A DNA stretch of 64,000 bases. It comes from an uncultured Chlorobiota bacterium (GTDB lineage Bacteria; Bacteroidota; Ignavibacteria; UBA10030; UBA6906). Below, one piece after another: positions 57,992 to 62,611 of this stretch. The position numbers and the translations under genes were made by a program. The stretch spans positions 128,912 through 192,911 of the forward strand of contig CAADGV010000024.1 in assembly GCA_900696645.1 (NCBI GenBank). Direction: 5' to 3'. The notes under the pieces were generated by a model. It did not search any database. It was given only the letters and a program-made list of their open reading frames with translations, and was not told the DNA's origin. Within the stretch, counting starts at the first letter, position 1; every line of letters starts with the position of its first letter.

Positions 57992-58533
57992 CGTTTCATC
58001 CACCATCTGTCTGGAAGATCATGAAGAATTTCCTTCTGTTCGGTATTATCGGCGTTACGACGGTTCTGCTGTCTGCATCTGCACATGCGCAGCTCGATCA
58101 AACAGGGCTGCTTTCCGCCACATCGGTGGGAACCACGACGTCGAACTTCTATTTCGCGAAGCCTAATGAGCTGACCATCATCGTGAATGTTTTGGGGTTT
58201 GTGCAAAAACCCGGACGGTACGAAATCTCCAGCACCATCGATCTCATCAACCTGCTTGCACTTGCCGGCGGACCCTCTTCGGACGGAACACTGAAGGGGG
58301 TGAAAATCTCCCGACTCGTTCGAAACGAGGAACGCTTTGCCCGGCAGGAATTCACCATCGATCTAAATGATCTGACACGGGTTGGCGCGGAACAACTCGC
58401 TTTACAGCCCGGCGATGTTGTGGAGGTTGACAGATCCACGTGGTCGGTTGTACGTGATATCTTCGGTGTTGTGGGGTATGCTGCCGTGATTACAACAACC
58501 GCAGCCACGGTCATCAATCTGGCCCGGAGATAA
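57988..58533 (+). CDS. SLBB-domain polysaccharide export-like protein
   Basis: A 181-residue protein with a signal peptide (ending ASAHAQ) and one SLBB domain (about 60-150: LGFVQKPGRYEISSTIDLI). It ends in a hydrophobic stretch (GVVGYAAVITTTAATVINLA). SLBB modules occur in Wza-type export proteins; this one lacks the Poly_export domain, so it is a small accessory form. The start at 57988 overlaps the kinase stop (ATGA); ATG 58021 would shorten the n-region. Confidence 0.8.
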   Translation: MTFHPPSVWKIMKNFLLFGIIGVTTVLLSASAHAQLDQTGLLSATSVGTTTSNFYFAKPNELTIIVNVLGFVQKPGRYEISSTIDLINLLALAGGPSSDGTLKGVKISRLVRNEERFARQEFTIDLNDLTRVGAEQLALQPGDVVEVDRSTWSVVRDIFGVVGYAAVITTTAATVINLARR

Positions 58534-58567
58534 GTTGTCCCACACAACGGTCAGGGGGTATTTCGCG

Positions 58568-59131
58568 ATGAACCATCTCATATCTGCAACAGGGCACACC
58601 GCACGGTGGTACGCGCTGTACACTCGTTCACGGTTTGAAAAGAAGATCGATGATGATTTTCGGCGGCGGGGAATTGAATGCTTCCTTCCGCTCGTGGAAG
58701 AGGTGCGTCTGTGGAGCGACCGGAAAAAGAAAGTGCTTGAGCCCCTGTTCAGAGGGTACATCTTTGTGCGAACGGATTTGCGCAACAAGGTCTCCATCCT
58801 CCAAACCGACGGCATCGTCCGGTTTGTGGGTGTGCGCAACACGCCATCTCCTGTTCCGGAACAACAAATCAACTGGGTTCGCATTCTTGCAGGCTCGCCT
58901 GATGCGATTCGTCGCGAAGAGTATGTGAGCGTGGGCGAGGTTGTACGGATCACTGCGGGTCAGTTCAAAGGTGTAGAAGGATTTGTCATGAAAGTGAAGG
59001 ATACGGCTCGTGTTGCCGTGTCGCTGTCGTGCATTGCCCAATCGGTATCTGTGGAAGTGCCGCAGGAATTTTTGGAGAGAATCGATCAACCTGTCGCTGA
59101 ACCAAGTATCGGTTTCGTTCGCAGGCTGTAG
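58568..59131 (+). CDS. NusG/UpxY/RfaH-like antiterminator
   Basis: A 187-residue NusG-like protein. The N-terminal NGN domain reads RWYALYTRSRFEKKIDDDF and LFRGYIFVRTD, and the C-terminal KOW domain lies in GEVVRITAGQFKGVEGF. Proteins of this sort (RfaH, UpxY) prevent early termination in long polysaccharide operons, and the position inside such an operon supports that. ATG 58568 was chosen over TTG 58535 for the ribosome site GGGGG and the typical N-terminus. Confidence 0.88.
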   Translation: MNHLISATGHTARWYALYTRSRFEKKIDDDFRRRGIECFLPLVEEVRLWSDRKKKVLEPLFRGYIFVRTDLRNKVSILQTDGIVRFVGVRNTPSPVPEQQINWVRILAGSPDAIRREEYVSVGEVVRITAGQFKGVEGFVMKVKDTARVAVSLSCIAQSVSVEVPQEFLERIDQPVAEPSIGFVRRL

Positions 59132-59264
59132 TTCAAGAATCTCTTTCGACGTCGTTGACAGACTCGTCCGTGACGTCGCATTGTAAGACCATGTCCGAGT
59201 AGGCCGCATCGTGCAGCTCAAAAAGCACAATGTGACTGAAAGGGCGGAGCGTGCCTGAGAGGAC

Positions 59265-59294
59265 AAGTCCCAAATCCCAATTGCCAAATTCCAA
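59265..59294. repeat. Left inverted repeat of IVP cassette 1
   Basis: Low-complexity CCAA-rich stretch. CCAAATTCCAA (59284-59294) is the exact reverse complement of TTGGAATTTGG at 59702-59712, and pairing continues outward without gaps: across 30 positions (59265-59294 with 59702-59731) 23 Watson-Crick and 2 G-U pairs can form. It lies 36 bases before the IVP gene. Confidence 0.8.
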
Positions 59295-59330
59295 GTACCA
59301 AGCAGCGACCGCGGAGCCTATTGACGAAAC

Positions 59331-59690
59331 ATGATGAACACAGACCGTCCATATGACCTTGAGGAGCGGACGTTCCTGTTTGCAAAGGAAGTCGCACTCT
59401 TCTGCAAGCGTTTGCCGAAGAATGTCGAGAACATAGAATACATCAAACAGGTCATACGATCATCAGGCTCAGTCGGTGCGAATTACATTGAGGCCAATGA
59501 ATCGTTGGGAGAAAAAGACTTTTCACTGAGGTTAAAGATCAGCCGTAAGGAAGCCAAAGAGTCGATGTACTGGTTACGACTCATTTGTGAGACAAACAAT
59601 ACCCAATTCGCCGGGTCCGGGACAGTTCTCGTGAATGAGGCGAATGAATTGCGGAAAATCCTTTCCACCATCATAAACAAAGCGAAATAG
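59331..59690 (+). CDS. Four-helix-bundle protein, 23S rRNA IVP/S23 family
   Basis: A 119-residue helical protein of the family first found inside intervening sequences of 23S rRNA genes. The family phrase is QVIRSSGSVGANYIEANES, followed by KISRKEAKESMYWL. These proteins form small helical bundles, often pentameric; avd of diversity-generating retroelements is related. The molecular role is unknown. It interrupts a polysaccharide operon between a NusG-like factor and a sugar dehydrogenase, and is bracketed by inverted repeats (59265-59294, 59702-59731). Confidence 0.92.
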   Translation: MMNTDRPYDLEERTFLFAKEVALFCKRLPKNVENIEYIKQVIRSSGSVGANYIEANESLGEKDFSLRLKISRKEAKESMYWLRLICETNNTQFAGSGTVLVNEANELRKILSTIINKAK

Positions 59691-59701
59691 GCACTTCATC
59701 A

Positions 59702-59731
59702 TTGGAATTTGGAGTTTGGACTTTGGAATTT
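59702..59731. repeat. Right inverted repeat of IVP cassette 1
   Basis: TTGGAATTTGG (59702-59712) and the following GTTTGGACTTTGGAATTT pair with the left arm at 59265-59294. The motif TTGGAATTT occurs twice in it. It begins 12 bases after the IVP stop and ends 12 bases before the ATG of the sugar dehydrogenase, leaving little room for a normal ribosome site there. Confidence 0.8.
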
Positions 59732-59742
59732 CACATAGAATT

Positions 59743-61044
59743 ATGAGTATCAAACAGGAGTTTCTCAAGAGAATTGACTCAAGAGATGCCCGGATCGGCA
59801 TCATCGGCCTCGGCTACGTCGGATTGCCGCTCGGACTCTGCTTCGCGGAGAAGAAGTTTCGCTGCGTCGGCTTTGATATCGACCGGAAAAAGACCGACGC
59901 ATTGTCGAAAGGCGAATCGTATATCAAACACATTCCTTCCGAACGCATCAGGCAGGCTGTCTGTTCAGGGATGTTCAGCGCGACAACAGACTTTTCGAAG
60001 ATTGCGGAGTGTGACGCTGTTCTGATTGCCGTACCGACACCGTTGAACAAGAATCGCGAGCCTGACATGTCGTACATCGTCAGTACGTGCGAGACGGTTA
60101 CACCGTATGTGCGTGCAGGTCAGTTGTTCGTGCTGGAGTCAACTACCTATCCCGGCACAACGGACGAGGTGGTCGTTCCGATTCTCGAATCAACCGGATT
60201 GAAATGCGATGTTGACTTCTTCGCGGCCTTTTCTCCCGAGCGTGAGGATCCGAACAACAAGGAATACCGGACCGAGACGATCCCGAAAGTCGTCGGTGCA
60301 ACATCACCTGAAGGACTGGCCGTTGCGGACAGGCTCTACTCACAGATCGTCGTGCGAACCGTTCCTGTTTCTTCAACGCGTGTTGCCGAGGCGACAAAAC
60401 TGATGGAGAACATCTTCCGCTCTGTAAACATCGCCCTCGTGAATGAGTTGAAAGTCGCCTTCATGAAAATGGGAATTGATGTGTGGGAAGTGATCGAAGC
60501 AGCGAAGACAAAACCGTTCGGCTACATGCCGTTCTATCCGGGTCCGGGACTCGGCGGCCACTGCATTCCTATCGATCCGTTCTATCTCACGTGGAAAGCA
60601 CGAGAGTACGGAGTTGCTACGCGGTTCATCGAGCTTGCAGGGGAGATCAATACTGCCATGCCGGACTTTGTTGTGCAACGAGTGATGGAAACACTCAATG
60701 ACCATGGCAAGGCACTTAAAGGTTCGAAGATCCTGATCCTGGGTCTTGCATATAAAGCCAACGTTGACGACGACCGCGAATCTCCTTCTTATCATCTGAT
60801 CGAGAAGTTGGAAGAGAAAGGGGCAACCGTGAGCTACAACGATCCGTTCGTTCCCGTTATTCGTCCCTCCCGTGAATGGTCGAAGTATGCCGGCCGCGAG
60901 TCGGTGGAAGTAAGCAACAACTACGATCTCATCCTCATCGCCACACCGCATGACGAATACAGGAAAATGGATTTCAGTAGCTTCTCCGCGCCGATTGTGG
61001 ATACGAGAAATATTGTGTCCGGCGGTAGAGCATACAAGGCTTAG
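59743..61044 (+). CDS. Nucleotide-sugar dehydrogenase (WbpA/TviB type)
   Basis: A 433-residue NAD-dependent dehydrogenase oxidising C6 of a UDP-sugar to a uronic acid. The Rossmann motif is GIIGLGYVGLPLG near the start, the family phrase FSPEREDPNN occurs in the middle, and the catalytic Cys lies in GLGGHCIPIDPFY. These features resemble UDP-GlcNAc 6-dehydrogenases (WbpA/TviB) more than UDP-glucose dehydrogenases; the exact sugar is inferred. ATG 59743 begins the conserved core; there is no clear ribosome site because the cassette arm ends just upstream. Confidence 0.92.
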   Translation: MSIKQEFLKRIDSRDARIGIIGLGYVGLPLGLCFAEKKFRCVGFDIDRKKTDALSKGESYIKHIPSERIRQAVCSGMFSATTDFSKIAECDAVLIAVPTPLNKNREPDMSYIVSTCETVTPYVRAGQLFVLESTTYPGTTDEVVVPILESTGLKCDVDFFAAFSPEREDPNNKEYRTETIPKVVGATSPEGLAVADRLYSQIVVRTVPVSSTRVAEATKLMENIFRSVNIALVNELKVAFMKMGIDVWEVIEAAKTKPFGYMPFYPGPGLGGHCIPIDPFYLTWKAREYGVATRFIELAGEINTAMPDFVVQRVMETLNDHGKALKGSKILILGLAYKANVDDDRESPSYHLIEKLEEKGATVSYNDPFVPVIRPSREWSKYAGRESVEVSNNYDLILIATPHDEYRKMDFSSFSAPIVDTRNIVSGGRAYKA

Positions 61045-61046
61045 CT

Positions 61047-61067
61047 GATTGTTGTTTGTTGATGGTT
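61047..61067. repeat. Left inverted repeat of IVP cassette 2
   Basis: GATTGTTG followed by TTTGTTGATGGTT is the reverse complement of the right arm at 61569-61600 at 20 of 21 positions, with one 7-base insertion in the right arm. It begins three bases after the dehydrogenase stop. Confidence 0.8.
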
Positions 61068-61122
61068 GATTGTTGACAGTCGATGGTGTATCATGTGAAG
61101 TCACAAACACGTGTGGTGCATC

Positions 61123-61545
61123 ATGAACGAACAACAGCCATCAGCGAAGGAACCCCTCAGGTCAGCGATTCACAAGTTGGAAGATCTCGAGTGTTACGTG
61201 AGGGCCAGGGCATTTCGAAAGCGTGTCTCCGAGACTTGTAAGCTCCTGCCGAAAGAAGAACAGTTTCGTTTGAGAGATCAACTGCTCAGATCGTCGAGAT
61301 CCGTTGCGGCCAATATTGCAGAAGGCTATGGTCGTCACCATCATCAGGAAAATCTCCAGTTCTGTCGTCAGGCCCGCGGTTCACTAACGGAGACAATCGA
61401 ACATTTGAATTGTGCACTTGACGAGAGATTTGTCGACGATGCACTGTACACTTTGCTGCGAGAGGAAAGCGACACATTGCTGAAGATCCTCAACGGCTAC
61501 ATCTCATACCTTCGAAAAGCAGCGGCAGCGGCAAAATCACGATAA
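61123..61545 (+). CDS. Second four-helix-bundle IVP/S23-family protein
   Basis: A 140-residue helical protein of the 23S rRNA IVP family, from a different subfamily than the one at 59331: the key phrase is LLRSSRSVAANIAEGYGRHH, then QFCRQARGSLTET. It stands in the same operon, also between inverted repeats (61047-61067 and 61569-61600) unlike those of the first. Start at ATG 61123; the GTG at 61111 adds four residues. Function unknown. Confidence 0.92.
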   Translation: MNEQQPSAKEPLRSAIHKLEDLECYVRARAFRKRVSETCKLLPKEEQFRLRDQLLRSSRSVAANIAEGYGRHHHQENLQFCRQARGSLTETIEHLNCALDERFVDDALYTLLREESDTLLKILNGYISYLRKAAAAAKSR

Positions 61546-61568
61546 TCCCATCGCAGCACAGCCAAGGC

Positions 61569-61600
61569 GTTGAACCATCAACTAACAACTATCAACAATC
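61569..61600. repeat. Right inverted repeat of IVP cassette 2
   Basis: Its reverse complement begins GATTGTTG, then a 7-base insertion, then TTAGTTGATGGTT, matching the left arm at 61047-61067. It ends exactly where the epimerase reading frame begins (TTG at 61601). Confidence 0.8.
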
Positions 61601-62611
61601 TTGCCTGAATACCTCGTCACCGGTTCCGCCGGCTTCATCGGCTACCACCTTGCTGAGCGGCTGCTCAATGACGGCGTGCGGGTTGTCGGGCTAGACAACA
61701 TGAATGCGTACTACGATGTCAGTCTGAAGGAGGCGCGGCTCGAACGGCTTCGACGCCACAAGGGATTCAAGTTTGAGAAACTCGACCTTGCAGACCGGAG
61801 CGGGATGGAACGGCTGTTCGCTGAACACACCTTCGATGTGGTTGTCAATCTGGCGGCGCAGGCGGGCGTCCGTTACTCGCTTACCAATCCGCATGCGTAC
61901 ATCGATTCGAACATTGTCGGGTTTTTGAATATCCTTGAAGGATGCAGGCACGCGAAGGTGAAGCATCTCGTCTTCGCATCCAGCAGCTCGGTGTACGGTG
62001 CCAACACCCAAATGCCCTTTGCCGTGTCGGACAATGTCGATCATCCAGTATCGTTGTACGCGGCAAGCAAAAAGTCAAACGAGTTGATGGCGCATTCGTA
62101 TGCACATTTGTACAAGCTTCCGTGTACAGGACTTCGTTTCTTTTCCGTGTACGGCCCGTGGGGGAGACCGGACATGGCGATGTTCTTGTTCACGAAGGCG
62201 ATCCTGGAGGGGAAGCCAATCGACGTGTACAACAACGGCGACCTGCAACGCGACTTCACCTACATTGACGATATTGTCGAGGGAGTTGCGCGTGTCGCAG
62301 CACGAATCCCGTCCGCAGACCCGGCATGGAACGGCGATGCTCCGAATCCCGCAACAAGCAAAGCGCCGTACCGTCTCTACAACATCGGCAATCATAATCC
62401 GGTACACCTGATGCACTTCATTGAACTGATCGAGAAGGCAGCAGGGCGGACGGCGGAAAAGCGATTTCTTCCGATGCAGCCCGGAGATGTGCCCGCAACA
62501 TTTGCCGATGTGGACGATCTTGTGCAGGATGTCGGCTTTGCGCCGGCCACACCGATTGAAAAAGGAGTGAAGAAATTTGTGGAGTGGTACAGGGAGTATT
62601 ATGGGTGTTGA
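61601..62611 (+). CDS. UDP-glucuronate 4-epimerase-like SDR enzyme
   Basis: A 336-residue extended short-chain dehydrogenase. NAD-binding [14 protein letters not shown], the YAASKKSNE active-site Tyr/Lys and the segments [19 protein letters not shown] and [12 protein letters not shown] are typical of UDP-glucuronate 4-epimerases (LpsL/GAE), which make UDP-galacturonate. The only possible start is TTG at 61601 with no ribosome site; an inverted repeat of the IVP cassette ends immediately before it. The core enzyme looks complete. Confidence 0.92.

Follow-up and report, generated by a model that had tools for sequence, protein, structure and literature searches.

The IVP/S23 four-helix protein is known chiefly from inserts within ribosomal RNA, and the locus described here raises the question of what such a gene is doing between protein-coding genes. 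The window analyzed in this study, a stretch of 64,000 nucleotides from the genome of an uncultured Chlorobiota bacterium, was read in the original prediction as containing a four-helix-bundle IVP gene at 59331, framed by low-complexity arms on the plan of the intervening sequences (IVS) of 23S rRNA and perhaps representing either a mobile element or a processing site for polycistronic mRNA.

Two framed IVP genes in an exopolysaccharide operon

The 119-aa product of the gene at 59331-59690 was found to match PF05635 in a profile search (E 5.3e-15, 56 bits, curated cut-off 33.8), which confirms the gene assignment. A second IVP gene, overlooked by the earlier reader, was found 1.8 kb downstream of the first with a stronger match (100.9 bits, cut-off 33.8), and the ugd gene of the operon is flanked on each side by one IVP element. 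The operon neighbours are exopolysaccharide genes, namely those for Wzz/tyrosine-kinase, SLBB, NusG paralogue, UDP-glucose dehydrogenase, epimerase and methyltransferase proteins. PF05635 was the sole domain found in both window IVP proteins, neither of which shows an HUH tyrosine transposase, and an Rfam scan of positions 58000-62000 gave no rRNA match. The features are listed below.

58535-59131, plus strand: NusG-paralogue gene (PF02357), upstream of element 1
59264-59302, plus strand: left arm of element 1, degenerate heptad array with a consensus of about CCAAATT, starting directly 3' of the leader conserved in congeners
59331-59690, plus strand: IVP/S23 gene 1, four-helix bundle (119 aa, PF05635)
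59702-59731, plus strand: right arm of element 1, complementary heptad array TTTGGAA, ending 11 nt 5' of the ugd ATG (59743)
59743-61044, plus strand: UDP-glucose/GDP-mannose dehydrogenase gene (ugd), between elements 1 and 2
61046-61087, plus strand: left arm of element 2, heptad array TGATTGT
61111-61545, plus strand: IVP/S23 gene 2 (PF05635, E 5.9e-29), the likelier start being the ATG at 61123
About 61570-61601, plus strand: right arm of element 2, complementary to 61046-61067, immediately 5' of the epimerase gene
61601-62611, plus strand: NAD-dependent epimerase gene, downstream of element 2

The arms of element 1 (59265-59294 and 59702-59731) form 23 Watson-Crick and two G-U pairs over 30 positions without gaps, so that the pairing of about 25 of 30 positions given originally holds when G-U pairs are counted. 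They are the longest inverted repeat within 2 kb around the gene (30 nt, 77% complementary). What had been described as low complexity was resolved by Tandem Repeats Finder into degenerate tandem arrays with a period of 7 bp in both arms. Among 3757 placements drawn at random from the rest of the window with the same geometry, 21 matched or beat the arm score of element 1; taken alone (about 0.006), this is significant, short of overwhelming. The arms of element 2 are built from another heptad, and their score of 34 was equalled by none of the 3757 random placements. Chance pairing was rejected as an explanation, as element 2 and the surveys below remove the reading that element 1 alone might have left. 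The element 1 arms are predicted to form an RNA duplex of -27.7 kcal/mol (shuffled arms: mean -12.4, sd 3.1), and the element 2 arms one of -26.6 kcal/mol. The leader at 59220-59263, between the NusG paralogue and ugd, is conserved in both congeners (GTGACTGAAAGGGCGGAGCG...) and is reminiscent of the ops element of RfaH-type antiterminators.

Seven PF05635 matches, six of them above the cut-off, were found in the window's genome (4.2 Mb, 46 contigs). Flank complementarity exceeded the 95th percentile of swapped flanks at four of these seven loci, two further loci have short complementary stretches that are visible by eye and lie below the threshold, and the last, a 270-aa relative, is flanked by none. 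The arm sequences vary from gene to gene within this one genome and are therefore not shared transposon ends, a candidate that was ruled out. The TGATTGT heptad of element 2 is not dispersed in the genome, with six matches of which three lie in its own arm (control, two), and unpaired CCAAATT-type arrays occur at about ten other sites, several of them in loops of type IX secretion domains.

IVP genes and heptad arms across genomes

The plan of the 23S rRNA IVS in protein-coding operons, as originally proposed, recurs widely both in relatives and in a broad survey. IVPs are encoded by 47 of 60 related genomes, with up to 16 per genome. For 79 loci from these relatives (81 fetched, two dropped at contig edges), the mean complementarity was 27.5 between flanks of the same locus against 17.5 for swapped flanks (Mann-Whitney p 5e-33), and 52 of the 79 exceeded the 95th percentile of swapped flanks. 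As a control, PIN genes of the same genomes gave 17.4 against 17.1 with one of 30 above the threshold. A scan of named genomes yielded 80 IVP loci in many phyla, including Cyanobacteria, Chloroflexi, Nitrospirota, Planctomycetes, Poribacteria, Acidobacteria, Omnitrophica, Proteobacteria and Bacteroidota. Removal of three duplicates left 77 loci and of three at contig edges 74, for which the means were 28.7 (same locus) and 19.3 (swapped; p 2e-17) with 25 of 74 above the swapped 95th percentile, the swapped baseline being raised because many loci share a heptad (YAGCNNT or TAAGTNN).

A score of at least 24 was reached in inverted orientation at 52 of 79 relatives' loci and 41 of the 73 broad loci entering the near/distant-flank comparison, against 7/79 and 11/73 in direct orientation and 1/67 and 1/68 for flanks 600 nt further out. 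Complementary flanks were again found in three further sets: 21 of 27 loci from Pedobacter/Flavobacterium (27 of 42 IVP matches from six named genomes, four of the 27 being duplicates of L272, L232, L257 and L278), 12 of 17 spirochaete loci (from 30 listed) and three of eight plasmid loci (8 of 29 matching plasmid records sampled, with three near-identical pairs among the eight loci). The direct orientation gave 5/27, 6/17 and 1/8 respectively. In the plasmid set, arms were not detected for the IVP genes on Trichormus and Nostoc plasmids, and a tblastn search for IVP in phages gave no match. On a Pseudanabaena plasmid, cas6 and cas4 have an IVP with TTAGC arms between them (L411:1489-1848).

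The remaining loci, 27 of 79 in the relatives and 32 of 73 in the broad set, score below 24 and have no detectable arms, which counts against the mobile-element reading. The original prediction had asked whether both flanks always form an inverted repeat and had named IVP homologues without complementary flanks as evidence against it; the inverted repeat stands for 52 of the 79 relatives' loci and "always" does not, about a third being without it. A strict one-to-one rule between IVP gene and arms is thus refuted, and the data fit an element that has non-autonomous copies. Such pairs are rare elsewhere: in 464 kb, made up of the window and twenty 20-kb stretches (400 kb) picked regardless of IVP genes, only three inverted pairs with period 7 and a score of at least 27 were found, namely both window elements and one around trpS. 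The trpS-like gene in question (L199:5115-6327) lies between complementary TCAGTTG heptads.

Among arm periods, 7 alone fits (EM log-likelihood 216, against 60 for the second-ranked period). Period-7 arrays were found upstream of 65% and 85% of IVPs and downstream of 46% and 50% in the two surveys, compared with 4-14% of distant flanks and 0-7% around PIN genes. An AATCAGA heptad forms an 18-copy array at the start of one contig (L016:1-127), immediately 5' of an aminotransferase gene. Genes for PF13366 GxxExxY/PD-(D/E)XK nucleases (30 loci, L058-L087) were observed to be framed by CACAGAG-type repeats with a period of about 9-10. Identity of this system with that of the IVPs was rejected on account of this longer period and because its flanks are no more similar when inverted than when direct; these genes are possibly a second system of like style.

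An rRNA search of the broad IVP loci gave a match in none of 77, and one of the 20 spirochaete loci checked has an rRNA match, a broken IVP between 23S and 5S whose heptad arms are visible by eye and receive a low automatic score. In the Coxiella 23S IVS, two or three GACAGAT heptamers, variable between strains, precede the S23 gene (PMC4990558), and the tie between the window elements and the rRNA IVS is for this reason tighter than the original prediction knew.

Protein-specific heptads, site turnover and gene-less hairpins

The heptad sequence was found to depend on the protein that it frames. Of 153 loci, the 109 whose upstream array is clear were compared, and arm similarity among them tracks IVP identity (Mantel rho 0.29; maximum of 500 permutations 0.15), and after removal of pairs with similar outer DNA the mean arm similarity was about 11.2 at less than 45% IVP identity and 18.7 at 55-70%. 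At 29 loci sharing a YAGC core, a locus's own arms match each other beyond the core (33.1 against 24.8 permuted, 0/5000), and at 15 loci with a TAAGT core they are barely better than permuted arms (129/5000).

Orthologous operons were compared, as had been proposed, and the same spacers were found to hold the IVP, another IVP or a gene-less hairpin. The NusG-like/ugd spacer is occupied by IVP 1 and its CCAAATT arms in the window's genome, by a complementary pair without a gene in one congener and by a different IVP with CAATTAT-type arms in another. The ugd/epimerase spacer of a congener with a 93% identical Ugd likewise holds a different IVP, with AGGTTT-type arms. The arg operon of Pedobacter and relatives is orthologous across 5 kb; one of its spacers contains an IVP in two species, gene-less TAAGT hairpins in two and a single arm in one, and at another spacer one species has an IVP where others have hairpins without a gene. 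In the first spacer, about one difference was seen by eye between the arms of the two hairpin species, although the surrounding DNA is about 83% identical. Another palindromic repeat (CGTCATTGCGAGGCACGAAGCAATCT type) was observed in the same arg spacer (L257:4020-4082 and L272:4025-4110), where in L257 it replaces one heptad arm.

Gene-less copies are dispersed in Pedobacter genomes, which have 15 to 100 TAAGT array matches where the control pattern has 1 to 4. YAGC arrays are almost absent from them. The built-in control of the YAGC pattern proved to be another heptad and an unclean null. In one Pedobacter genome, 24 TAAGT clusters include nine gene-less hairpins, all with the motif inward, and one IVP-framing pair; the gene-less hairpins lie between co-directional genes such as atpF/atpH (names by eye). 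The array-pattern search did not find dispersed cognate hairpins in Flavobacterium. Arms without IVP genes, which had been named as evidence against the original prediction if they were equally common, are therefore present, and in that one genome outnumber framing pairs by nine clusters to one.

Heptad arrays were also found in one loop of type IX secretion C-terminal domains (L010, L012, L014, L015 and L289-L302). The encoded peptide is QIPNSN in the window's genome, another genome has QLSANS-like stretches, and since these loop peptides differ, each genome uses its own heptad there. Mobility of the CCAAATT and TCAGC arrays was not accepted from copy number alone, as many of them sit in these loops, whose domains are paralogues.

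A candidate minimal element and its rivals

IVP genes inside operons of many phyla, framed by mirrored seven-letter repeats, suggest a widespread, little-noticed and tiny element. The proposal starts from what was observed: the architecture and its recurrence, the period of seven, the sense orientation in operons, the link between heptad and IVP identity, and gene-less hairpins of the same heptad, also at orthologous sites. The reading that we give about an even chance is a minimal element of about 0.5 kb, an IVP/S23 gene within inverted arms of 7-bp repeats, in which the IVP would bind its own heptads, the element and its hairpins would spread, and the 23S IVS would be one case. The ring protein IVP could bind the heptads in DNA or in RNA. 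The element and the gene-less hairpins may be helped by enzymes of the host, or by one supplied in trans, to spread into gene gaps of operons, where they would be transcribed by the host operon. The hairpins that lack a gene would be to the element what REPs are to RAYT genes, non-autonomous copies, and the 23S rRNA IVS could be such an element that landed in an rRNA helix and whose stem is trimmed by RNase III.

Several known systems share parts of this plan. The 23S rRNA IVS of Leptospira and Coxiella have an IVP/S23 gene between complementary ends at a similar size, the Coxiella ORF being preceded by heptameric repeats (PMC4990558), whereas the window elements lie between exopolysaccharide protein genes, and have locus-specific heptads and gene-less copies. 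A mobile origin of the rRNA IVS was proposed by Burgin 1990 and by Ralph and McClelland 1993 (cited in PMC4990558), and neither the IVS nor the S23 protein was seen in the ribosome in a 2026 structure (PMC13392368). RAYT genes are mostly non-duplicated and lie inside inverted cognate palindromic repeats, which co-vary with the protein and of which gene-less palindromes are scattered between genes (PMC2817692); for IVP, such dispersal is clear in Pedobacter and absent in Flavobacterium, and in the window's genome CCAAATT arrays are dispersed but unpaired and TGATTGT arrays are not dispersed. In its plan, its matching of heptads to proteins, its gene-less copies and its turnover at sites the IVP system resembles RAYT-REP, with a four-helix bundle in the place of the transposase, although the IVP bundle has no known nuclease or transposase domain and its repeats are 7-bp tandem arrays and not a single REP. 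Avd of the diversity-generating retroelements belongs to the same protein superfamily as IVP, with 2GSC and 4DWL held to be homologous (PMC10053308), but a profile scan of ten window proteins detected no reverse transcriptase. Intergenic 7-mer arrays are further known as the GGGAATC-type heptamers of Xanthomonas/Nostoc and the TAACTGA heptamers of Beggiatoaceae, with about 70-75 inverted heptamer pairs reported for two Xanthomonas genomes; the available part of that paper makes no link to IVP genes (PMC4692102). Among open-licence PMC papers other than preprints, we found none tying non-rRNA IVP genes to heptad arms.

The suggestion of a mobile element in the original prediction gains from presence and absence at orthologous sites and from the gene-less copies; the binding of IVP to its own arms, its role in copying and mobility itself are what we infer. 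Several observations count against mobility. The IVPs inside one genome are almost all distinct, so recent self-copying is not visible, cognate hairpins are dispersed in Pedobacter but neither in Flavobacterium nor for element 2 in the window's genome, solo heptad arrays sit in type IX secretion domains, one IVP of the Pedobacter arg operon is vertically inherited, as for a useful gene, and the element genes encode no enzyme, with no target-site duplication or real-time movement seen. The wider claim, which we put forward tentatively and at somewhat less than an even chance, is that of minimal mobile elements throughout the bacteria, in which a ring-shaped and apparently non-enzymatic IVP would recognise its own arms and move itself and its hairpins into operon spacers, with the rRNA IVS as rare members and the PF13366 genes maybe a parallel system.

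An immobile regulatory module, in which the IVP would bind the adjoining heptads and control the expression of its own gene or operon and the other hairpins would be further operator sites, appears unlikely. It would account for the tracking of IVP identity by the heptads and for arms that adjoin start codons. It also agrees with the vertical inheritance in the arg operon and with a dN/dS of about 0.06-0.25 in an orthologous set of seven IVPs, purifying selection from which it follows that the IVP does something and which speaks for the minimal-element reading as well. Against it stand the mirror-oriented arms at both gene ends, the different IVPs and heptads held by the same site in congeners, and the broken reading frames, eight of the relatives' 79 having an internal stop or fewer than 60 aa.

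Still harder to credit is an RNA-processing device, in which the arms would pair in the polycistronic mRNA, an RNase III cut would separate the transcripts and selection would keep the pairing. The predicted duplexes of both elements favour it, as do the arms filling the spacer from stop to start codon and the cutting of the Coxiella IVS by RNase III at the first heptad (PMC4990558). With co-directional neighbours, 74 armed IVPs lie in sense and four in antisense (PIN genes, 11 and six), which can be read in its favour; this near-exclusive sense insertion, from which the IVP gene seemingly lacks a promoter of its own, also fits a promoterless element relying on host transcription. Were RNA pairing under selection, G-U mismatches should exceed A-C mismatches, yet they are not commoner, with ratios of 53:58 in the relatives, 14:21 in the broad set and 8:4 in a set of ten hairpins without a gene. 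The data therefore do not reveal selection for a stem at which mRNA is cut, RNA pairing was rejected as the main force, and the processing site of the original prediction gains no support. Moreover, the stem is missing at about a third of IVP loci, and the arms vary in sequence with the IVP protein, a dependence for which a generic RNase III stem would have no need.

Least probable of all is a mutational by-product, by which heptad slippage and fold-back copying would make palindromic 7-mer arrays in operon spacers where IVP genes merely persist: heptamers are over-represented among bacterial simple repeats, with polymerase slippage proposed as the cause (PMC4692102), and solo arrays, gene-less hairpins and the missing G-U excess agree with it, but PIN genes of the same genomes show no such flanks, such pairs are almost absent from unbiased sequence and the heptad depends on the IVP protein.

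The origin of the rRNA IVS and the function of the S23 protein have been an open question for over 25 years. Most members of the IVP family found here lie outside rRNA, their ends and repeat unit are defined, and a binding target can be predicted for every protein, so that the question of origin and function is directly testable. IVP elements could also account for part of the excess of heptameric repeats and hairpins that has been noted between bacterial genes.
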